Assembly: GCF_947489565.1 (NCBI RefSeq)
Contig: NZ_CANLEA010000008.1
Span: forward strand, 62,001-126,000
Length of the DNA: 64,000 bases
From: an uncultured Kordia sp.
Lineage (GTDB): Bacteria; Bacteroidota; Bacteroidia; Flavobacteriales; Flavobacteriaceae
Direction of reading: 5' to 3'
The notes below the pieces were generated by a model that made no database searches, was not told the origin of the DNA, and saw nothing but the letters and a program-made list of their open reading frames with translations. A program made the position numbers and the translations under genes. Of the stretch, positions 14,205-61,759 are shown piece after piece. Positions within the stretch are counted from its first letter, which is position 1, and each line of letters opens with the position of its first letter.

Positions 14205-14441
14205 ATGAAAAAAAAGAGTATCAAAAATTTATCGTTAAACAAAAAATCAATTTCTAACTTACATGCAAGTCAAGGAATTGTTGGAGGAACTCAAAATTCA
14301 ATTAAAATTTGTATTCGTACAATCGTAGATCAAAATGGAAATAACATTTGTTTACGAACAGTTTTTAACTGCGATCGTACTTGGCAACCAGGTTGTGTAA
14401 ATACCAATGAAGTAGATACAAATACCTATCCAATTTGTTAG
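14205..14441 (+). CDS. GG-leader Cys-containing peptide (class I lanthipeptide-like precursor)
   Basis: The 78-residue product has leader MKKKSIKNLSLNKKSISNL and a VVGG-like site (GIVGG, about residues 24-28). The core has four Cys spaced along a Thr/Asn-rich stretch and ends in PIC. The leader matches the KKLSLNKxxISNL type. It has its own terminator and probably its own promoter. No modifying enzyme lies beside it. Confidence 0.8.
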   Translation: MKKKSIKNLSLNKKSISNLHASQGIVGGTQNSIKICIRTIVDQNGNNICLRTVFNCDRTWQPGCVNTNEVDTNTYPIC

Positions 14442-20066: not shown

Positions 20067-20255
20067 TTAAATACAAGTCTCATTATTAGCACTAATCAAT
20101 CTAGGGTTTTCATCTATTGGATTTGGATTTGGAACTTCTGTTGGTTCATGAAATGCACTAGATTTATTAGAATCTTCTTCATTACCTCCATAGATTTTAT
20201 ATGTTGATATTGTAATTTTTTTGAGGGATAATTTTTTGTGAAATTTACTTTTCAT
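20067..20255 (-). CDS. GG-leader peptide with single C-terminal Cys (SSAFHEPTEVP type)
   Basis: The 62-residue peptide has leader MKSKFHKKLSLKKITIS followed by KIYGG (about residues 20-24), then SSAFHEPTEVPNPNP and a tail LISANNETCI. The only Cys is next to last. The peptide at 20778-20996 has the same leader, the same SSAFHEPTEVP block and a similar LISGNQQSCM tail, so they are paralogues. It may be a RiPP precursor or a secreted signal peptide; which one is not settled by sequence. A TPR-AraC regulator lies 830 bp away on the same strand. Confidence 0.75.
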   Translation of the reverse strand: MKSKFHKKLSLKKITISTYKIYGGNEEDSNKSSAFHEPTEVPNPNPIDENPRLISANNETCI

Positions 20256-20437: not shown

Positions 20438-20713
20438 ATGAAAAAAAAGAATGTAAACTTGAAATTAAGTTTAAAGAAAAATCGTGTATCTAATTTACAA
20501 TCGTATGGTGTTACAGGTGGAGCTAATGTGACAAAAGAATCTCCATGTCCAGTAAAATCGGAACGTGGACCTTGTTATTCAGAAGATTGTATCGTTACAG
20601 GACCTTCAATAGTTGCCACATGTGCAGCTGGTTGTACGAGAGCAACCATAGAGCTTTCGTATTGTAACAATGGAATTCCAAACCCTTGTTTATCAGTGCA
20701 AGTTTGTGCGTAA
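20438..20713 (+). CDS. GG-leader Cys-rich peptide (class I lanthipeptide-like precursor)
   Basis: The 91-residue peptide has leader MKKKNVNLKLSLKKNRVSNL and VTGG (about residues 25-28). The core has nine Cys with many Ser and Thr, ending CLSVQVCA. It is divergent from the peptide at 20067 and convergent with the peptide at 20778. No modification genes are adjacent. Confidence 0.8.
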   Translation: MKKKNVNLKLSLKKNRVSNLQSYGVTGGANVTKESPCPVKSERGPCYSEDCIVTGPSIVATCAAGCTRATIELSYCNNGIPNPCLSVQVCA

Positions 20714-20777: not shown

Positions 20778-20996
20778 TTACATGCACGATTGTTGATTAC
20801 CGCTAATCAAGGTTGTATTTTGTGATTGATCGGTTTCATCAAGTGCAGGGAAATCTGTTGGGACTTCTGTAGGTTCGTGAAAAGCACTCGATTGTGTAGG
20901 AACAGATTCCGTATTGGGATCGGCACTTCCTCCGTATAGATTGTAAACAATGGTAACTTTTTTTAAAGCTAATTTTTTGTGAAATGTACGTTTCAT
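20778..20996 (-). CDS. GG-leader peptide with single C-terminal Cys (SSAFHEPTEVP type)
   Basis: The ATG at 20996 gives 72 residues starting MKRTFHKKLALKKVTIVYNL with YGG at about 21-23. A longer in-frame reading from 21101 would put 35 unrelated residues before the leader and overlap the regulator gene. The block SSAFHEPTEVP and the tail LISGNQQSCM match the peptide at 20067. The gene lies 91 bp downstream of the TPR-AraC regulator on the same strand, so the two may share a transcript. Confidence 0.75.
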   Translation of the reverse strand: MKRTFHKKLALKKVTIVYNLYGGSADPNTESVPTQSSAFHEPTEVPTDFPALDETDQSQNTTLISGNQQSCM

Positions 20997-21087: not shown

Positions 21088-22788
21088 TTACATATTGTCA
21101 AGGTTTTTTATATAATAAGAAGGATTGAATCCAGTACGTTTCTTAAAAGCTTTTGCAAACGATTCGGACTTTTTAAAACCAATTTCTTCTGCGATAGATT
21201 GAATCGTATACGAACGTAACTTTTTATCATTCTTCAATGCGCTCAAAACATAGGTAATACGCATCTCAGTCATATATTCTGAAAATGTTTTCCCTTTATA
21301 TTTATTGATCACTTGAGACAGATAAGTAGAATTGGTATGGCATTTTTTGGCTAGTGTAGAAAGGCTGTACTTCTTATCAAGAAAAAACAATTTGGCTTCA
21401 AGCTTTGTCAAATCATCTAATATTTTTGAAGCTTTTTCATCAGATAATACATAGCCTTTTGATGACGGTTCATTTGGCGTGAATTCTTTTGTTTTTAATT
21501 CATCAATAAGTGTATGAAACTTTGCTAATTTCTGTTTTTGCTTATTCCTATTATATACAAAAAAGCTAATAGTAACGATGAGCAGCAGTACAATTACTAA
21601 AATGGCTTGCGAAAAATAACTTTTAAAAAGGTTCGATTCTTTGGTCGCTTTCTCAGCGCGATATTCTACATTCTTTAAATCATATCCTTCAAAAATAGTT
21701 TTGTACAGCTCAAAACGCTTATCCGTACTTAAATTTTTACGTTCAATATACTGATCGTACACTTCAGTTGCTTTTTCATGTTTTCCTAATTGCGCATAGG
21801 TTTTTGCTAAGAATTGATAAGTTTCATCCAAACCAATAAATTTCAAATTTTTCTGCTGTATAATTTGATCAGTTTCTTTAAAATTATTCAAAGCATCTTC
21901 AAACTTTTTCAATCCAAACATACATTTTCCTTTATCGAGCAATAAAAAAGGAGTAATTAACTGAAGTTCATTGTGACTTCTAGAAATCGCCAACGCTTGA
22001 TTCAATACAATCAACGCTTTATCGTACTCTTTCTTGGCTGTATACACATTGCCTTTTCCGCCAATAGCGATACATTTCCCAGAAAGATAATTGGTTGTTT
22101 CATTCAGTAGAAGACTCTTGGAATACAATTCAATTGCTTTATCATACATAGCTTCGTCGGTATAAGACTTGGCAGTATTATTGAGCATTTTTATACAACG
22201 AACCTTTAAAAACTGGGAATCAGGTTTGGTGTGCAACAACGAATCATAGGAATGAATTATTTTATCAAACTCACGCAATGCTTCTTTAGTTTTTCCAACT
22301 TTAAGTTTGATGGTGGCAATATCAAACTCTAAAGTCAATTGATTCTCAATAGCACCTTTTGTTCGCATCAAATCATAAGCTTGTATATAATAATCTAAAG
22401 CATTTTCGTAATTAGATTGAATATAAAAAGTAGCACCTTTTGCATGAAAAAATGAAGCTACTAGTGAATCTTGTTTATTACTTTGGGCAAACAAAATAGC
22501 TTTGTCAATGGCTAAATGTGCTTCGGTATAGGCTTTTGATTTTCTATGAATTCGATGTTTAAAATAATAGGATTGCGCAATATAATTAGTATCTTTTTGA
22601 ACAGTTGCTTTTGTTGAAAATGCTGCAATATATCTTTCAATATCTTTAGTAGTGTTCAAATGTTCTTTAAGGTATACATATTGTTGTGAAAGATTCTTCT
22701 CTTTAAAAACTACAAGGGAATCTTGATTATTGGCTACAATCCAAAACGGAAAAAAAAGCAATAACAAGAAAAGTTTAGAAATACGCAT
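21088..22788 (-). CDS. TPR-containing membrane-anchored AraC-family regulator (paralogue 1)
   Basis: The ATG at 22788 gives 566 residues beginning with a signal sequence (MRISKLFLLLLFFPFWIVA); the upstream ATG at 22824 would bury it. Residues about 30-385 form tetratricopeptide repeats. One membrane helix follows near 393-415 (AILVIVLLLIVTISFFVY), and then a cytoplasmic AraC-type DNA-binding domain ending FKKRTGFNPSYYIKNLDNM. The predicted layout is a periplasmic TPR sensor with a cytoplasmic HTH. Paralogues lie at 27071 and 29555. All three have GG-leader peptide genes beside them, which makes those peptides candidate ligands or targets. The signal is not known. Confidence 0.88.
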   Translation of the reverse strand: MRISKLFLLLLFFPFWIVANNQDSLVVFKEKNLSQQYVYLKEHLNTTKDIERYIAAFSTKATVQKDTNYIAQSYYFKHRIHRKSKAYTEAHLAIDKAILFAQSNKQDSLVASFFHAKGATFYIQSNYENALDYYIQAYDLMRTKGAIENQLTLEFDIATIKLKVGKTKEALREFDKIIHSYDSLLHTKPDSQFLKVRCIKMLNNTAKSYTDEAMYDKAIELYSKSLLLNETTNYLSGKCIAIGGKGNVYTAKKEYDKALIVLNQALAISRSHNELQLITPFLLLDKGKCMFGLKKFEDALNNFKETDQIIQQKNLKFIGLDETYQFLAKTYAQLGKHEKATEVYDQYIERKNLSTDKRFELYKTIFEGYDLKNVEYRAEKATKESNLFKSYFSQAILVIVLLLIVTISFFVYNRNKQKQKLAKFHTLIDELKTKEFTPNEPSSKGYVLSDEKASKILDDLTKLEAKLFFLDKKYSLSTLAKKCHTNSTYLSQVINKYKGKTFSEYMTEMRITYVLSALKNDKKLRSYTIQSIAEEIGFKKSESFAKAFKKRTGFNPSYYIKNLDNM

Positions 22789-22944
22789 CAATGGTAGTTT
22801 GGTTTCACAATTAAAAAAATACAATATATAATATCTATTTTTTTATACATGTAAAAACTATCATAATTTCTAAAATATACGAGCTGTAAATGTTAGTAAA
22901 TCATCACATTTCTTACGATATTAGCACTCTCAATATATGTCGAT

Positions 22945-26299: not shown

Positions 26300-26693
26300 G
26301 GGAATTATATTGGAATTTTCCCTGCTAACAATAGCTTCAAACGGTATCAATAATAAATTCTGAATTCAATAATTTAATATTTAAAACACTGAAAAATAGA
26401 CATTTAAAAATTAAATGTGTATTTCGAAATAAAGTTTATCTGTTACTTTTTTCATTAAAACTTCATGTCTAATTGTATTCAGAAATTAACCTAAAAAAGA
26501 CGTGTTTTATCGTTCTTACCATCACAAGTTTTCGTCTTGCCCTATTTTGTTTAAAGTCGTGATATGTCTCTTTTTTTTGATTTTTAAAAGCTAGACATTC
26601 GTATCAGAAATCAAAAACAATTGTGATCAATTTCGAGTACGGGGAAGCTGAAAACCTTTAATAGAGTAAGCATTATTTTAATAACATAAAACG
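26300..26693. other. Long leader region before the GG-leader peptide
   Basis: About 390 bp carry no convincing ORF. The last 60 bp (26640-26693, with GAAAACCTTTAATAGAGTA) resemble the leader before the peptide at 29160 (GAAAACCTTTAAAAGAGTA), so these two peptide genes probably share promoter or leader elements. Nothing else was recognised. Confidence 0.45.
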
Positions 26694-26858
26694 ATGAAAA
26701 AGTCATTAAAAAAGTTACAGATTAACAGAGAAGTGATCTCCAATTTTCATGCAGATAAGGTAAAAGGAGGAAGTATATTTAATACGGTTACTGAATGTAT
26801 AACAGGAGAGCCACCAACAGATCTTTTTTGTGCAACAGGTGCCATAGTTTGTGGATAA
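26694..26858 (+). CDS. Small GG-leader peptide upstream of TPR-AraC regulator
   Basis: The ATG at 26694 and TAA at 26856-26858 enclose 54 residues. The leader MKKSLKKLQINREVISNF ends at VKGG (about 23-26). The short core has three Cys (TECITGE, LFCATGA, IVCG). The leader matches that of the peptide at 29160 almost residue for residue at its start. It lies 212 bp before a TPR-AraC regulator on the same strand, with a long inverted repeat between them. Confidence 0.72.
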   Translation: MKKSLKKLQINREVISNFHADKVKGGSIFNTVTECITGEPPTDLFCATGAIVCG

Positions 26859-26948
26859 TAACAACAAGCCATACGCTATAGTTTTTATATTGAAAGGTGT
26901 GTATAAATGAATTCAAAAATTATTGCAAACACTATTTCAATACACAGA

Positions 26949-27006
26949 AAATTACGTTACATAAGAAAAGGCTGTACACACAAATTTTTTCTTTAGTAAC
27001 GTAATT
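26949..27006 (+). promoter_or_regulatory. Inverted repeat AATTACGTTAC / GTAACGTAATT before TPR-AraC gene
   Basis: Perfect 11-bp arms at 26950-26960 and 26996-27006 are separated by 35 nt. The right arm continues into CTTATTTGTCA. A similar pair precedes the regulator at 29555, and a lone right arm precedes the hydrolase at 31623. It could be an operator or a terminator/attenuator of the peptide transcript. Confidence 0.5.
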
Positions 27007-27070
27007 CTTATTTGTCACTACTCTATAGTTAATTACTATATTTACGAAGTAAACAAAGTTCTTTTAGTTT

Positions 27071-28687
27071 ATGGAGTATAAAAAACAGCTGACAATAATA
27101 GCTATTATAGCATTAAAAACCTTTTTCCTTTTAACTTGCACAATTGCATATTCACAACAAAAATCACTGGCAGGCAATCAAAAAACGACCTTACAACAGT
27201 ATATGGATGTAGGGAATGAATTGCAAAAAAAAGAAAACTACATTCATAGCATATCGTATTTTTTAAAAGCGACTAAAATTGCCGAGGAAATAGAAGATAC
27301 CAATCTATTGTTTAAAGCATATATGAAGCTTGGAAACTCGTATTACTATAGTTGGAAAAATGAAAAAGCAATTGAAGCATATTACAATGCACTCACGGTT
27401 GCCAAAAAAAATAAAAGTATTGATCAGGAATTGATTGCCTATTCTGGATTGATTGCTTTTTTGCCCTTTATAAACAAAGAAGATAAAGCTGTAGACTTCT
27501 CCATATATGCATTAAGTCTTATTGATAAAGCTTCGTTTAAAGGAAAGGAAAATCATGTGCGGGTTTTGACAACAATCTGTGATGCGTATATGGCGCAGGG
27601 AAACTATAAAGCAATGTATCCGCATGTGGTAGCAGGTATAAAAATAGCAGATACTTTACATTTTCAAGAAGGACTTGTGGATTTGTATATTAAAAAAGGA
27701 AAGTTTTACAGGCATGAAAAAAACTATGATAAAGCTTTTGAATGTTTGTTTAACGCAAAAAAAATCATCACGGAACACAACTTAGCAAATCCTTTTTTTC
27801 CAACCGTTAATACCAATTATGCAATAGGACTTTGCTATTATGATTTGGAAAAATATGAAGAAGCCATTACCTATTTATCAAGTTCAATTCCGATCATAAA
27901 AGAAGATGATTTAGAAAAAGACAATGTAATTAACACCTACAATTTGTTAGCACAATGCTATTCAAAAAAAGAAAATTACAAAAAAGCGACGTCTTTATTA
28001 AACAAAGTAATTGCCATAAAAAATACAGCAAGTCGTAAAAAAAATATCGCAACGAATACATTTCACGATCAGGATAGTGAAAAGTTTTTAACTCAAATAA
28101 TTGCGCTACAAAATAAAGGGAAAGAAGATCGGCAAACCATGAGTTATATGTTTTGGGCAATTATAGCAGCTACTTCGGCATTTTTGATCACATTACTATT
28201 GTATGTAAAAAAGCAAAAAACGAATCGGGCAACATTTAAAGACTTGCTCAAAAAAATTTCAGCTTTAGAAGAAGAAGAAAAAGTAGCATTACAAAAAACA
28301 TCTAAAAAAGAAAGTAAAAATATTTTGGTAGACGATTCTACTATTAAAGTAATCATAGGACGATTAAACAAATTAGAAGCACAAAAATATTTCTTAAAAC
28401 CAAACTGCACATTAACGTCAATTGCCAAAAAAACAAAAACCAATGTTACCTACTTATCACAAATCATCAATAGTGAAAAAGGGAAGACCTTTAGCGAATA
28501 TATCAACGATTTACGAATTGAATATGTACTAAAAAGATTGAAAAATGATAAAAAATTTAGATCATTCTCTATCAAAGGCATCGCAACAGAAATTGGTTAC
28601 AAAACAGATGATTCTTTTGTAAAACATTTTAAAAAGAAAACAGGGCTAAACCCATCTTACTATATAAAAGAGCTGAATAAGATTTAA
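27071..28687 (+). CDS. TPR-containing membrane-anchored AraC-family regulator (paralogue 2)
   Basis: The 538-residue protein starts with a hydrophobic signal (about 8-28), then TPR repeats to about residue 340, one membrane helix near 357-378 (FWAIIAATSAFLITLLLYV) and a C-terminal AraC-type HTH domain (about 430-535, ending KKKTGLNPSYYIKELNKI). It is closely similar to the regulator at 29555 over its whole length, for example in SWKNEKAIEAYYNAL and DKASFKGK. A GG-leader peptide precedes it and another follows, a repeated arrangement in this region. The predicted topology suits sensing an extracytoplasmic ligand. Confidence 0.88.
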   Translation: MEYKKQLTIIAIIALKTFFLLTCTIAYSQQKSLAGNQKTTLQQYMDVGNELQKKENYIHSISYFLKATKIAEEIEDTNLLFKAYMKLGNSYYYSWKNEKAIEAYYNALTVAKKNKSIDQELIAYSGLIAFLPFINKEDKAVDFSIYALSLIDKASFKGKENHVRVLTTICDAYMAQGNYKAMYPHVVAGIKIADTLHFQEGLVDLYIKKGKFYRHEKNYDKAFECLFNAKKIITEHNLANPFFPTVNTNYAIGLCYYDLEKYEEAITYLSSSIPIIKEDDLEKDNVINTYNLLAQCYSKKENYKKATSLLNKVIAIKNTASRKKNIATNTFHDQDSEKFLTQIIALQNKGKEDRQTMSYMFWAIIAATSAFLITLLLYVKKQKTNRATFKDLLKKISALEEEEKVALQKTSKKESKNILVDDSTIKVIIGRLNKLEAQKYFLKPNCTLTSIAKKTKTNVTYLSQIINSEKGKTFSEYINDLRIEYVLKRLKNDKKFRSFSIKGIATEIGYKTDDSFVKHFKKKTGLNPSYYIKELNKI

Positions 28688-28708
28688 TCTTTTAAAAGTT
28701 AAAAACGA

Positions 28709-28735
28709 ACCCTATTTTAAAGAAAATAGGGTATT
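28709..28735 (+). terminator. Hairpin after TPR-AraC gene 2
   Basis: ACCCTATTTT and AAAATAGGGT form a perfect 10-bp stem with a 4-nt loop, though only a weak T tract follows. A related hairpin (CCCATTT...AAATAGGG) follows the regulator at 29555. Confidence 0.6.
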
Positions 28736-28796
28736 ATATTTTCGCTAGTTTTCAATGAGCATCTATATTTAGACACGAAAACAAAACCTTATAACA

Positions 28797-28949
28797 ATGA
28801 AGAAAAATTTAAAAACAATTAACTTAAAGAAAATTACCATTGCAACAATAAACCCAGAAACTGCGGAGCAAATCAAAGGAGGATCAAGCCTTCCAACCGA
28901 GTTTGAGGAAAGAACATTTCAAGGTGATTGTCCTTCGCTTTCACATTAA
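28797..28949 (+). CDS. Small GG-leader peptide with one Cys
   Basis: The ATG at 28797 and TAA at 28947 enclose 50 residues. The leader MKKNLKTINLKKITIATI ends at IKGG (about 26-29), and the core ends GDCPSLSH with a single Cys. It lies between the two closely related TPR-AraC regulators. The leader pattern KKxTIxxI...IKGGSS is close to the peptide at 31275. It has its own terminator. Confidence 0.7.
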   Translation: MKKNLKTINLKKITIATINPETAEQIKGGSSLPTEFEERTFQGDCPSLSH

Positions 28950-28973
28950 AATTTCACAAATACAGTAACTTCT

Positions 28974-29002
28974 AAGTCTTGTTTTTACACAAGACTTTTT
29001 TT
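28974..29002 (+). terminator. Terminator of the peptide gene at 28797
   Basis: AAGTCTTGT and ACAAGACTT form the stem around TTTTAC and are followed by a long T run. Confidence 0.85.
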
Positions 29003-29159
29003 GAACCCGAATTTTTTTAATCTCGCGATACAACTATTTTTTTAAAGGCGTTAAAAACAGAAATTAGTTTCCAGAATAAAGCAGAGCTAGCATGTTTTTA
29101 TTCATAAGGGAAAACCGAAAACCTTTAAAAGAGTAGGTGATATTGAAACCAACAAGAAA

Positions 29160-29306
29160 ATGAAAAAATCATTAAAAAACTTAGCATTAAAAAAAGAAGT
29201 AATCACAAATTTTGATCTTAAAAAAGTTAATGGCGGTGGACCAACAGCACTTATGTGTAACTCTGTGCCTAGAGCGCAAGGAGGAATTGGTTGTCACCTA
29301 AAATAA
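29160..29306 (+). CDS. Small GG-leader peptide upstream of TPR-AraC regulator
   Basis: The ATG at 29160 and TAA at 29304 enclose 48 residues. The leader MKKSLKNLALKKEVITNF ends at VNGGG (about 23-27), and the short core has two Cys (LMCNS and IGCHLK). The leader and the DNA before the start resemble the peptide gene at 26694, so the peptide-regulator unit seems duplicated. It lies 248 bp before the regulator at 29555. Confidence 0.7.
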   Translation: MKKSLKNLALKKEVITNFDLKKVNGGGPTALMCNSVPRAQGGIGCHLK

Positions 29307-29346
29307 TGATACCATATTTTTGATAAGCTAAAACTCATCAAAACTT

Positions 29347-29396
29347 TAAAATTACGTTACAGCAATTAAAGTCCTTTTTTTACTGTAGCGTAATTT
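29347..29396 (+). promoter_or_regulatory. Inverted repeat AAATTACGTTACAG / CTGTAGCGTAATTT
   Basis: The arms at about 29348-29361 and 29382-29395 pair with one G-T and enclose a T-rich loop. The right arm leads into TTTTATTTTA. It matches the inverted repeat at 26949. As with that copy, it may be the terminator of the preceding peptide gene or an operator for the regulator. Confidence 0.5.
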
Positions 29397-29554
29397 TTAT
29401 TTTATACTAACAGGCAGTTTCTTCCATACACTTTCACACACCTAAAAACATATAGCTACGTTAAATTCAAATTAAAATTTTATACGATTGATGGTTGTAA
29501 GATTAATATAGTTACTTTGTAGTCAATATTAAGTTTTCTTTTTCCATTTAGTAT

Positions 29555-31180
29555 ATGAATATAAAAAAAGTCCGAATTATTCTCTTGGGAATTATTTTCT
29601 TTTTAGTAGGATATAACTCATTTTCACAACAGACGCACAATACCAACGAAACCAAAGAGCAAACAATACAACGGTATATAAATCTTGGTTACGAACGACA
29701 AAAGAAAGAAGAATATCGAAAAAGTATTGCGCTGTTATCAGAAGCAATAGTACTTGCAAAAGAGATTGAGAACGATAGTTTGCTATTCCGTTCGTATATG
29801 AAACTCGGAAAATCGTACTTGTACAGTTGGAAGAATGAAAAATCAATTGAAGCGTATTACAATGCATTGAAACTTGCAAAAGACAACGGAGATATTGATC
29901 GAGAACTAGCTGCCTATTCTGGATTAATTGCTTTGCTACCTTTGATTAATAAAAAAGACAAAGCTGTCGACTACTCTTTGTATGCACTTACTTTAATTGA
30001 CAAAGCCTCTTTCAAGGGAAAGAAAAATCATGTCAATGTACTCACAACGGTTTGCGATGCTTTTATGGCAAAAGGTGAGTATGATGCGATGCTTCCTCAT
30101 TTGAATGAAGGAATTCAGTTGGCTGAAAAACTAAACTACTATGCAGGTCTTGTGGATCTATATATCAAAAAAGGAAAGTACTATCGTCACAAGAAAAACT
30201 GGGAAAAAGCTTTCTATTATTTAAATAAATGCAAAGACATTCTAAAAGAAGGTAAGGTATCAAGTCCTTTTTTTCCGACTATAAATGCTAGTAATGCCAT
30301 TGCAAGATGTTATTTCGATCAAGAAAAATACGATGAAGCCATTCAGGAATTATTGAATGCAACTTCAATTATACAAAAAGAGGATTTGGAAAAAGATAAT
30401 GTTATTGAAACGTATCTGTTTTTAGCAAATTGTTATTTGAAAAAAGAAAATTTCGAAGCAGCAGCTCCATTATTCAAAAAAGTAATAGGCTTAAAAGATA
30501 CCGCTCGATCTCGTAAAGATGCGGCCGTAAATAAATTTCATGAGGAAGATAGTAATAATCTTTTGTCAGATATCGAAAAACTCCAGCATCAGGAGAAAGA
30601 ACACAAACAAACCATTAACTATATGTTATGGGGAATTCTATTCATCGCAATCGCCTTTCTTCTAATTTCATTCGTGTTCATCAAGAAACAAAGAGCCAAC
30701 AAAGCTACGTTTAATGCGCTTATTGAAAAAATATCAACATTAGAAGCAGACAAAAAAAGCATCAGTTCTCAAAAGCCCAAAAGCACGACAAAAGGTACGC
30801 GTTTAGATGACGACATTGTAAAAACCATACTTGCACGATTAGAGAAATTAGAAGAACAAGAATATTTTTTAAAACCTACGTGCAATTTGCGTTCTGTAGC
30901 TAAGAAAACCAAAACGAATAGTACGTATATCTCTCAAATCATCAATAAATACAAAGAGAAAAAATTTAATGACTATATCAATGATTTGCGAATTGAATAT
31001 GTTTTAAAAAGATTGAAAAATGATGAAAGATTTAGAATGTTTTCCATCAAAGGAATTGCTACAGAAATAGGATACAGAAGTGCCGATTCGTTTGTAAAAC
31101 ACTTTAAAAAGAAAACGGGACTAAATCCATCATATTATATCAAACAACTCAATAAAATGGAGGCTTCCGAAGGTGAATAG
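29555..31180 (+). CDS. TPR-containing membrane-anchored AraC-family regulator (paralogue 3)
   Basis: The 541-residue protein has a signal sequence (about 7-25), TPR repeats through about residue 335, one membrane helix near 355-378 (LWGILFIAIAFLLISFVFI) and a C-terminal AraC-type HTH domain (about 430-533) containing FSIKGIATEIGYRSADSFVK. It is the close paralogue of the regulator at 27071. Peptide genes flank it at 29160 and 31275. Its targets are unknown, but the neighbouring peptide and hydrolase genes are the obvious candidates. Confidence 0.88.
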   Translation: MNIKKVRIILLGIIFFLVGYNSFSQQTHNTNETKEQTIQRYINLGYERQKKEEYRKSIALLSEAIVLAKEIENDSLLFRSYMKLGKSYLYSWKNEKSIEAYYNALKLAKDNGDIDRELAAYSGLIALLPLINKKDKAVDYSLYALTLIDKASFKGKKNHVNVLTTVCDAFMAKGEYDAMLPHLNEGIQLAEKLNYYAGLVDLYIKKGKYYRHKKNWEKAFYYLNKCKDILKEGKVSSPFFPTINASNAIARCYFDQEKYDEAIQELLNATSIIQKEDLEKDNVIETYLFLANCYLKKENFEAAAPLFKKVIGLKDTARSRKDAAVNKFHEEDSNNLLSDIEKLQHQEKEHKQTINYMLWGILFIAIAFLLISFVFIKKQRANKATFNALIEKISTLEADKKSISSQKPKSTTKGTRLDDDIVKTILARLEKLEEQEYFLKPTCNLRSVAKKTKTNSTYISQIINKYKEKKFNDYINDLRIEYVLKRLKNDERFRMFSIKGIATEIGYRSADSFVKHFKKKTGLNPSYYIKQLNKMEASEGE

Positions 31181-31274
31181 ACGCCCCATTTTAATCGAAA
31201 TAGGGCACGATGTTTTCGTTAATTTCAAATCTAAACATATCTTAGATTCATTAACATTATAAAACAGTTACATT

Positions 31275-31463
31275 ATGAAAAAGCAAACAAGAAAAATCAG
31301 TCTAAGAAAAGTAGTAATTTCAAAAATAGACACCTTAGATATGCATAATATCAAAGGAGGATCAAGTATTCCTACAGATTCTGTAAATGGAGAAACAAAA
31401 CGTTTAAGCGATCCAGGTGATCCAGATTTAACACATAACAATTGTGACTCAAACGGATACTAA
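31275..31463 (+). CDS. GG-leader peptide with one Cys near the C-terminus
   Basis: The 62-residue peptide has leader MKKQTRKISLRKVVISKI and IKGG (about 26-29), followed by a Ser/Asp/Thr-rich core ending NNCDSNGY with a single Cys. Its core start GGSSIPT resembles the GGSSLPT of the peptide at 28797. It lies 94 bp after a TPR-AraC regulator on the same strand and ends at a strong terminator. Confidence 0.75.
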   Translation: MKKQTRKISLRKVVISKIDTLDMHNIKGGSSIPTDSVNGETKRLSDPGDPDLTHNNCDSNGY

Positions 31464-31622: not shown

Positions 31623-32588
31623 ATGAAATTACTAGTACGCGTGTTTAGTCTCTTGTTATTTGTGCATTCTACGTTAACTTTAGCACAACAAGATCCCAAC
31701 ATTTATGACAAATTCGAATCAAAATTCTACACAATTGATGGCTACAAAATCAATGTAGAAGTCAAGGGAACTGGAGACCCAATTTTCTTTTTGCCTGGCG
31801 GACCAGGAAACTCGCACGATTATATGCAAGGAAATTTTGGACAGTATTACAAAACAAATACGGTTGTATTTTTTGATTTTTTGGGAAGAGGAAAAAGTGA
31901 CAATGCTAAAAACATATCGGAATATTCGGTAGAAAATGATGTCGAACTCATTGAAAAACTCCGCAAACTATTAAAGTTCAAAAAAATCTCTTTAGTAGGA
32001 CATTCCTATGGAACAGTTCCGGCGCAAGCCTACGCCATCAAATATAAAGACAATGTAGACAAAATGGTATTGATCAATGGTTTTCATAGTGGCGCTATGT
32101 GGCAAGCAAACTGCGATAGTTACAATCAATATGCAAAAACACACTTTCCTGAAAAATGGAAAAAAGTAGATTCGTTACGTGCGTTAGGATATGTTTCAAG
32201 CGATCCTGAATTTATGAAAGTCTACGGAAGCTTTCCAACCAAATATGTATACTATCACAACACAAAACTCAAGCAGAATACACCTAAATATAAACATAGA
32301 GGTTGGGCAAATGATGTCTATGTAGCAATCATTGGAAAAGATGGTGATTTTGACGTTTCTGGAAGTATGATCTATCAAGATTACAGAAAAGAATTGAAAA
32401 ATATAAAAGCAAAAACATTAATAGTTGCGGGACGATATGACGGAGTTTCTACTCCAGAATTTGCCGTGCAATACCAACAATTCATGCCACAAGCAACATT
32501 TGTAATGTTTGAGCAAAGTGCGCACAATCCGTATTTAGAAGAGCCTGAAAAGTTTTACAAACTATTTACAGACTTTATGAATGAGTAA
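31623..32588 (+). CDS. Secreted alpha/beta hydrolase, proline iminopeptidase-like
   Basis: The 321-residue protein has a signal peptide (MKLLVRVFSLLLFVHSTLTLA). The alpha/beta hydrolase fold shows the oxyanion segment GGPGNSHD (about 59-66), the nucleophile elbow GHSYG with S128, and a late His in SAHNPYLEEPEKF. The HGGPG-type motif and spacing resemble the proline iminopeptidase branch of S33 peptidases. It probably acts in the periplasm. It overlaps the next small gene by 8 bp and carries the same upstream half-site as the TPR-AraC genes. Confidence 0.88.
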   Translation: MKLLVRVFSLLLFVHSTLTLAQQDPNIYDKFESKFYTIDGYKINVEVKGTGDPIFFLPGGPGNSHDYMQGNFGQYYKTNTVVFFDFLGRGKSDNAKNISEYSVENDVELIEKLRKLLKFKKISLVGHSYGTVPAQAYAIKYKDNVDKMVLINGFHSGAMWQANCDSYNQYAKTHFPEKWKKVDSLRALGYVSSDPEFMKVYGSFPTKYVYYHNTKLKQNTPKYKHRGWANDVYVAIIGKDGDFDVSGSMIYQDYRKELKNIKAKTLIVAGRYDGVSTPEFAVQYQQFMPQATFVMFEQSAHNPYLEEPEKFYKLFTDFMNE

Positions 32589-61486: not shown

Positions 61487-61759
61487 CTAGCCATACACGC
61501 AATCCCACCAATATGTTGGATTTGGATATGTATATGTATAACATGTAAGCTGTGTTTGTGGCGGACATGTGTTTGTTTGACAGTTTCCTGTAGCAGGCGG
61601 ACAATTTCTTGTTGGTGCAGGACCCGATCCAGAACCACCAGTTCCACCAGTACAGTTACCTCCGTAACTTCCTCCTCTAATGCGCTCTTGCGTTTGCTGG
61701 TCAAGGCTACTTACACTTCGCTTGTTTAATTTTAATTGAATACTTACCTTTTTTTTCAT
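61487..61759 (-). CDS. GG-leader Gly/Cys-rich peptide (RiPP precursor candidate)
   Basis: The 90-residue peptide has leader MKKKVSIQLKLNKRSVSSL and a RIRGG site (about 26-30). The core is Gly-, Thr-, Pro- and Cys-rich (seven Cys, e.g. RNCPPATGNCQTN and a WWDCVYG tail). The adjacent divergent gene at 61864 encodes a LanC-like protein with a PqqD-like tail; a glycosyltransferase-like gene lies downstream. This is the only GG-leader peptide here with a plausible enzyme next door. Confidence 0.8.
   Translation of the reverse strand: MKKKVSIQLKLNKRSVSSLDQQTQERIRGGSYGGNCTGGTGGSGSGPAPTRNCPPATGNCQTNTCPPQTQLTCYTYTYPNPTYWWDCVYG

Follow-up and report, generated by a model that had tools for sequence, protein, structure and literature searches.

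TPR-AraC membrane regulators and adjacent GG-leader peptides form a conserved gene unit in Kordia and other Flavobacteriaceae that may serve peptide signalling

Regulator and peptide genes of the Kordia locus

The window, i.e., the whole 64,000-nucleotide stretch analysed here (positions 62001-126000 of contig NZ_CANLEA010000008.1, or C8, in the 6.4-Mb genome of an uncultured Kordia sp., genome label G000), contains three genes for regulators in which a tetratricopeptide repeat (TPR) domain is joined by a predicted membrane segment to a C-terminal AraC-type helix-turn-helix (HTH), and each is followed on its own strand by a gene for a small peptide with a Gly-Gly (GG) leader. This pair is a real, conserved gene unit. 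An earlier note on this DNA had reported GG-leader peptides within about 250 bp of three such regulators, and the three regulator genes and five peptide open reading frames (ORFs) are all present.

Regulator 1 is encoded on the reverse strand (21088..22824, probable start 22788) and matches TPR_12 (67.6 bits) and HTH_18 (51.3 bits), with a membrane segment at about residues 398-427. Regulators 2 (27071..28687; TPR_12 74 bits, HTH_18 50.3 bits) and 3 (29555..31180; TPR and HTH domain matches) lie on the forward strand and are 58% identical; a peptide-regulator unit was thus duplicated, as the earlier note had proposed. The proposed architecture of TPR sensor, membrane helix and AraC HTH likewise stands, on the domain matches and on the membrane segment predicted from hydropathy.

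The constant partner of the regulator is the downstream peptide, here called type A, which starts 92, 110 and 95 bp past the stops of regulators 1, 2 and 3, respectively. The type A ORF of regulator 1 (20778..20993, reverse strand) most likely starts at ATG 20993 and would then encode 71 aa; it matches a leader hidden Markov model (HMM; see below) at E 1.2e-4 and the lanthipeptide leader model NF038153 at 13.6 bits, below the cut-off of 22. Those of regulators 2 and 3 are 28797..28949 (forward; core SSLPTEFEERTFQGDCPSLSH; leader HMM E 5.1e-10; NF038153 21.4 bits) and 31275..31463 (forward; core SSIPTDSVNGETKRLSDPGDPDLTHNNCDSNGY; NF038153 22.6 bits), respectively. The peptides ahead of regulators 2 and 3 are another class, the product-like type B: the precursors at 26694..26858 (forward; core with three Cys; NF038153 16 bits) and 29160..29306 (forward; core GPTALMCNSVPRAQGGIGCHLK; 12 bits), both below the cut-off, end 213 and 249 bp before their regulators, and similar ends to the core of the latter occur in Aquimarina. 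The symmetric pairing on both sides of the regulator that had been read from these genes was therefore abandoned.

Two further peptides lie near regulator 1, namely a second GG-leader peptide downstream of it (20067..20255, reverse; NF038153 16.3 bits, below the cut-off) and a Cys-rich lanthipeptide-type peptide on the opposite strand (20438..20713, forward; 17.3 bits, likewise). Thus, all seven peptides match NF038153 weakly, only 31275 lying above the cut-off and 28797 just under it; the leaders of the regulator-adjacent peptides appear to resemble the class I lanthipeptide leader that this model describes. Elsewhere in the window, NF038153 has two more matches above its cut-off, at 14205-14273 (forward, 27.7 bits) and 61670-61759 (reverse, 28.4 bits).

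Pairing within the source genome

HTH_18 has 98 matches in the genome, 48 of them in frames of 500-700 aa. A membrane segment is predicted between the HTH and a long N-terminal part in 45 of the 48, which were kept; the other three have a different architecture and were dropped. With NF038153 alone, and with the best 150 of 289 candidates scored, a leader was found within 300 bp of 12 of the 48 TPR-size regulators vs. two of 50 other AraC genes. Because these matches were weak, a local leader profile was built and seeded with 13 peptides behind the genome's own regulators. It was then iterated, with no use of position, over 5115 small ORFs from the 45 regulator loci and from 28 of the 50 other AraC loci, which served as controls.

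At E 0.01, a leader peptide follows on the same strand within 250 bp in 42 of the 45 regulators (43 at E 0.1), compared with one of 28 control AraC loci on either strand (Fisher p=1.4e-15). In the 250 bp downstream, no regulator has such a peptide on the other strand, and upstream peptides within this distance are found in seven (same strand) and six (opposite strand) of the 45. Among the remaining ORFs of these loci that encode 180 aa or more, 6/286 have a downstream leader peptide. The gap between regulator stop and peptide is 76-151 bp. No leader peptide was found behind the receptors at loci L009 and L030; the latter directly precedes its paralogue L029, which has one. Just past the window, at C8:129-140 kb, four further receptor-peptide units (L025-L028) form a tandem array on a single strand.

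Spread across Kordia and the Flavobacteriaceae

The regulator profile has 15-49 matches at E 1e-40 in each of 11 Kordia genomes, and one regulator of the source genome is 91% identical to a regulator of a Kordia metagenome-assembled genome. From 36 loci in named genomes, 33 were used (L112 has a broken frame, L127 is truncated and L128 belongs to another family), and 25 of these are paired with a peptide: 13/13 in other Kordia and 12/20 outside the genus. The eight unpaired loci are three from Flavobacterium, three from Aquimarina and one from Chryseobacterium, plus L102. The enrichment of GG-leader ORFs beside homologous regulators, proposed earlier as a check of the signalling hypothesis, is thus strongly positive for the source genome, for Kordia as a genus and for part of the other genera.

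At the family level, 49 of 199 genomes (nearly one per genus, with at most six candidates scored in each) have a regulator match at E 1e-60. The first 80 of the 89 non-Kordia matches listed were taken, two without a usable frame were dropped, and 17 of the remaining 78 regulators are paired. In all sets together, 84 of 156 regulators are paired at 66-200 bp, or 82 of 154 distinct ones, as two of the family-level loci are identical to two from named genomes. When the pairing label is placed on a FastTree tree of the 154 regulators, it changes 16 times vs. a mean of 51.2 after shuffling, with none of 500 shuffles as low. Two of the window regulators sit in a clade of 15 rows that also includes Aquimarina, Lacinutrix and others, and every row of it is paired. 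Behind the peptide-free regulators of four loci (L167, L168, L174, and L181) stands a gene whose 129-138-aa product has a hydrophobic stretch at its N-terminus and a motif of the form NCxC or HCxC; this protein may be the partner of such regulators in place of a peptide.

Tandem arrays and duplicated units do exist, and one may ask whether the pairing is a by-product of duplication, with peptide genes persisting next to regulators in the absence of any functional coupling. This is very improbable, since strand and spacing are fixed (66-200 bp in the 84/156 regulators, two loci counted twice, and no opposite-strand peptide in the 250 bp downstream of any of the 45), pairing persists at a mean TPR identity near 0.22, and single pairs occur in small genomes.

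Architecture and fold of the receptor

TPR_12 is matched by 44 and HTH_18 by all 45 of the source genome's regulators, and a membrane segment between the two domains is predicted by hydropathy in 45/45 (at about residues 350-430 in the window regulators). At an equal hydropathy threshold, an N-terminal hydrophobic segment is found in 29/45. The AlphaFold2 model of regulator 2 (27071; pLDDT 88.8, pTM 0.62, 36 sequences) consists of a TPR superhelix, a long helix with the membrane segment, and the HTH. A Foldseek search with this model places LGN first, with NprR (5dbk, 4gpk) and a Rap-CSF complex (4gyo) at ranks 34, 37, and 40; NprR-NprX is among the peptide-binding TPR matches, and Rap and NprR are found by profile matches as well as by fold. 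The modelled fold therefore appears to be of a peptide-binding type, but the match is generic.

TPR identity tracks the similarity of the adjacent peptide cores when HTH identity is taken into account (partial r 0.19 for 42 pairs of the source genome and 0.30 for 82 pairs; none of 1000 permutations as high in either set).

Two peptide classes

Among 83 distinct type A cores, six have no Cys and 20 have one, and 77 contain Cys. In type B, i.e., the other leader peptides of the source genome's own loci (n=76), none is without Cys and two have a single one. Cores with zero or one Cys are thus more frequent in type A (26/83 vs. 2/76, p 7e-7), and less markedly so within the source genome alone (6/43 vs. 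2/76, p 0.025), where the split of L036 is doubtful. By eye, type A cores of the window clade often start with S-S-x-P-T-E/D, and type B cores often have CNSVPxAxGGIGCHxK or NxCPPPGxQC-like ends.

The genome holds many more candidates with lanthipeptide-type leaders (most of the best 150 scored lie below the cut-off) alongside one LanB. There are leader arrays (e.g., L085, L087, L088, L089, and L092), many of them with no recognised enzyme for ribosomally synthesised and post-translationally modified peptides (RiPPs) in the stretch examined. In L081 (4220-6679), L082 (4800-8062), and L083 (5449-7495), a LanC-like gene stands with a nucleotidyltransferase-like gene (MntA-type, below the cut-off) and a GG-leader peptide, with no adjoining LanB; such modules are possibly an undescribed RiPP type. 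L080 (4181-7972) carries a class V lanthipeptide-like set composed of an LxmK-like APH protein (below the cut-off), a HopA1 protein, LanC, and a GG-leader peptide.

Association with LanB, LanC and C39

LanB (PF04738) is present in 18 of the 199 family genomes. Among 40 of the 47 non-Kordia genomes with regulators, it occurs in 12/12 genomes with a pair vs. 3/28 without one (G049, G137, and G204; p 8e-8), and it has no match in the seven regulator-bearing non-Kordia genomes outside the 40 compared. C39 transporters are found in the same 12/12 vs. 11/28, and in the source genome. There, the single LanB is clustered with LanC, a LanB C-terminal half, the paired regulator L007, and three GG peptides, and HlyD and the C39 transporter lie on the other strand.

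In nine genomes (G000, G005, G020, G036, G055, G060, G095, G133, and G141), LanB-LanB' lies immediately ahead of a paired receptor in the same orientation. In G158 and G187, LanB-LanB' and the receptor lie within one cluster, the receptor of G187 being in two pieces there, and in G087, G112, and G148, a receptor was not found within the LanB stretch examined. Seven of these genomes (G020, G036, G055, G060, G095, G133, and G141) have a LanB-LanB'-receptor-peptide operon and lack a LanC match altogether; they make up 7/12 of the non-Kordia genomes with pairs, whereas the source genome has both LanB and LanC. At E 0.1, six of the seven (all but G036) have a single leader match, namely the receptor-adjacent peptide. 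Since the profile included these leaders, their detection is by construction, and it may miss others. Two LanB-free genomes, G120 and G154, have a short Cys-free GG peptide behind the receptor, which the profile missed and which was recognised by eye. After it comes a prolyl oligopeptidase, which was confirmed by Pfam in G120 and recognised from sequence in G154. In addition, a 782-aa protein directly before the G154 receptor (L187) resembles alpha-oxoamine synthases by eye, and grasp-with-spasm ATP-grasp genes occur near LanB-receptor operons or a receptor in L210, L212, L213, and L010 (TIGR04192 above the cut-off in L210 and L010, TIGR04193 below it in L210; L212 and L213 recognised by sequence).

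Within this context, the main rival of a signalling function is that the adjacent peptide is a product gene and its neighbour an ordinary cluster regulator: the peptide would be a lanthipeptide only (bacteriocin-like), and the TPR-AraC protein would sense some other cue, such as envelope stress, nutrients, or competitors. We regard this as unlikely, albeit as a serious contender. It would account for leaders of the class I lanthipeptide kind, for the location of paired regulators in LanB operons, and for the Cys found in 77/83 adjacent cores, many of which are Thr-rich. It fits less well with the six cores that are free of Cys, with the seven LanB systems without a LanC match, and with the two LanB-free genomes that retain a short Cys-free GG peptide next to the receptor; moreover, the receptor has been multiplied along with the peptide, and there is not one regulator for all.

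Peptidase neighbours

In the LanC-free operons, the gene after the peptide encodes an S8 subtilase in G055, G060, G095, and G141, an S9 prolyl oligopeptidase in G133, and a 302-aa S8 fragment in G036; in G020, the contig ends there. S8 or S9 is thus the next gene in 6/6 readable operons, one of them a fragment. In G120, a C39 match begins 23 bp past the prolyl oligopeptidase. In the source genome, the next gene was scanned for eight units, chosen in part for its size, and in four it encodes a peptidase (S9 in L008, L016, and L035; S8 in L038). In the window itself, the gene next after the 31275 peptide encodes an alpha/beta hydrolase of the proline iminopeptidase type (31623..32588, forward; TIGR01250 139.3 bits, cut-off 167.65; Abhydrolase_1 98.8 bits) with an N-terminus that is signal-like by eye. 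The signal peptides of the neighbouring peptidases were likewise judged by eye, as secreted-looking. A tandem array in G043 carries an S9 gene, and no peptide could be recognised in it.

The peptidases also bear on the idea of self-protection or feedback, in which the receptor would detect the modified product in the periplasm and turn on immunity or lower production, the product being toxic to others. The anatomy would be equal, and the adjoining peptidases could be immunity proteins that destroy the peptide. We consider this improbable: by eye, with no systematic search made for one, no immunity gene was recognised beside the units, and several cores are acidic and small, again by eye.

Signals in the gap and the DUF805b RNA

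The gap between receptor and peptide carries signals of its own. A terminator-like stem-loop with a 10-bp perfect stem lies past the stop of regulator 2 (28709..28732, forward), and its counterpart past regulator 3 (31183..31206, forward) is similar in sequence and forms an imperfect stem-loop, with pairing judged by eye. Perfect stems of at least 8 bp are found in the first 60 nt of 17/82 gaps vs. a mean of 1.75 in 20 mononucleotide shuffles. The motif TAnnTTTG, which we take to be the Bacteroidota -7 element, occurs in 19/82 gaps vs. a mean of 7.9 and a maximum of 15 in 200 dinucleotide shuffles, with a copy 32-41 nt before the ATG in 14 of the 19 and 57-62 nt before it in the other five. 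These signals fit a terminator past the receptor and a separate peptide promoter, in at least part of the units.

The type B precursors are preceded by something else. The earlier note had described like upstream DNA for 26694 and 29160, and the DNA that they have in common is the DUF805b structured RNA of Rfam (RF02914): both precursors have a match above the gathering score of 35.6 bits, at 26638..26672 (forward, 36.5 bits, 21 nt 5' of the 26694 ATG) and 29105..29139 (forward, 44.6 bits, 20 nt 5' of the 29160 ATG). An interpretation of this conserved block as a new pseudoknot RNA was rejected on account of the Rfam match. In the window clade, with genes classed by leader type, an exact GAAAACC block lies upstream of 16/19 type B genes (plus one variant) vs. 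0/18 type A genes. A comparison of type A with type B upstream DNA in the two window units showed no sharing above the level of shuffles. Sub-threshold DUF805b matches (30.1 and 30.9 bits) are found ahead of type A-like genes in L104 and L217.

The source genome has at least 31 DUF805b matches above the gathering score (best 150 of 4021 candidates scored), and among its 47 matches listed, none begins in the 200 nt that follow the HTH of any of the 48 TPR-size regulators. In 10/16 listed matches that were read, a sample biased to RiPP loci, what we read as a GG-leader ORF begins 17-26 nt past the RNA. Immediately 5' of the ATG, the element accompanies GG-leader precursors with several kinds of leader and also some larger unrelated genes. 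A name search found no published link between DUF805b and RiPP precursor genes, with most subscription journals outside its coverage.

Comparison with known systems

The earlier note had likened these units to the RRNPP systems (Rap, NprR, and Rgg). The likeness lies in adjacent genes for a small exported propeptide and a TPR receptor or regulator, and this part stands, with a TPR receptor and an adjacent propeptide gene in 42/45 cases. However, the RRNPP receptor is cytoplasmic and has no membrane helix, whereas here a membrane segment is predicted in 45/45 regulators, the TPR domain is predicted to be extracytoplasmic, and the helix joins it to a C-terminal AraC HTH; also unlike RRNPP, the peptide has a GG leader and usually LanB. 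In the accessible part of PMC10075063, RRNPP receptors are treated as intracellular and the system as one of Firmicutes, and the accessible part of PMC10352776 reports TPR genes in Bacteroidales RiPP clusters, which it likens to Rgg pheromone binding.

Class I lanthipeptide clusters of Bacteroidota have like leaders, and one Kordia cluster combines LanC, split LanB, a C39 transporter, and HlyD. They differ in that here there is a constant receptor-peptide pair, seven genomes are LanC-free, and some adjacent peptides have zero or one Cys. The lanthipeptide-type leaders and the LanB link, like the two peptide classes and the peptide-free relatives of the regulators, had been overlooked in the earlier note. 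PMC10734526 and PMC7477175 report clusters of RiPP or lanthipeptide type from Kordia or its family; neither AraC nor tetratricopeptide occurs as a word in their accessible parts. No description of the receptor-peptide pairing was recognised in the literature searched; most subscription journals were outside coverage, so that absence from print is not shown.

In the nisin/NisRK and ComC-ComD systems, an exported lanthionine or GG-leader peptide induces its own genes. The pair described here would be alike in this respect, and, as with ComC-type pheromones, a GG leader and a genomic C39 exporter are both present. However, those systems use a histidine kinase and a response regulator, in contrast to a single membrane protein in a Gram-negative host.

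A possible autoinduction circuit

Peptide sensing is the simplest account of why the two genes keep a fixed adjacency and have multiplied together, why the TPR domain has diverged next to an HTH that is conserved, and why there are Cys-poor peptides beside the receptor and peptidases close by. We lean towards the view that the regulator is a one-component transmembrane receptor and that the adjacent, exported, usually LanB-modified peptide is its ligand and autoinduces RiPP genes. According to this scheme, the TPR domain would lie outside the cytoplasm, a single helix would pass through the inner membrane, and the AraC domain would sit on DNA. The GG-leader peptide would be modified by the single LanB in most genomes with a pair, cut at the GG and exported by the C39 transporter, and, in some units, trimmed or removed by the neighbouring peptidase. 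The mature peptide would occupy the TPR groove of its own receptor, which would act, presumably as an activator, on the peptide promoter in the gap of about 100 bp and on RiPP genes, closing an autoinduction loop. In Kordia, about 45 copies of the unit have arisen alongside one LanB and many precursors of lanthipeptide type. Operons of the LanB-LanB'-receptor-peptide-peptidase form support the signalling idea, as do G120 and G154, where LanB is absent and a short Cys-free GG peptide and a prolyl oligopeptidase follow the receptor. The peptide signalling hypothesis as first put forward is thus partly supported, through enrichment and operon context, and the peptide is a putative ligand of the receptor.

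Several observations weigh against the signalling view. At the family level, 61/78 regulators have no detectable peptide; the ancestral ligand may have been something else, or the peptides of unpaired regulators may be too diverged for detection. G137 and G204 have LanB without LanC, yet no pair, and many type A cores are rich in Thr and Cys and could be plain lanthipeptide products. LGN outranks NprR and Rap in Foldseek, which makes the fold match generic. HTH identity, given TPR identity, keeps an r of 0.09 with core similarity (reached in 40 and 3 of 1000 permutations in the two sets), the TPR-core correlation is only r 0.11 for pairs with less than 33% TPR identity, co-duplication can produce that correlation, and common descent can contribute to all of these. 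The leader profile was seeded from 13 peptides of the source genome chosen at the downstream position, the peptidase-neighbour counts stand without a base rate for comparison, and the looser motif TAnnTTT is not enriched in the gaps (57 vs. 49.6).

Gram-positive bacteria offer well-documented cases of peptide signalling through a dedicated receptor, which is, to our knowledge, little known in Bacteroidota. The fixed receptor-peptide pair with LanB, and with a peptidase in some units, is a directly testable autoinduction circuit and suggests a route to switching on silent RiPP clusters. The occurrence of LanB in LanC-free genomes raises the question of what LanB does without LanC, and an orphan RNA, DUF805b, is now attached to RiPP precursor genes. 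It is quite conceivable, although we propose it tentatively, that the Flavobacteriaceae possess a peptide communication of their own, in which an inner-membrane TPR-AraC receptor would respond to a GG peptide that is often dehydrated by LanB (in some genomes in the absence of LanC) and that in some units would be matured or cleared by a secreted peptidase. Kordia would then operate about 45 parallel channels with distinct cores and a shared machine for modification and export.

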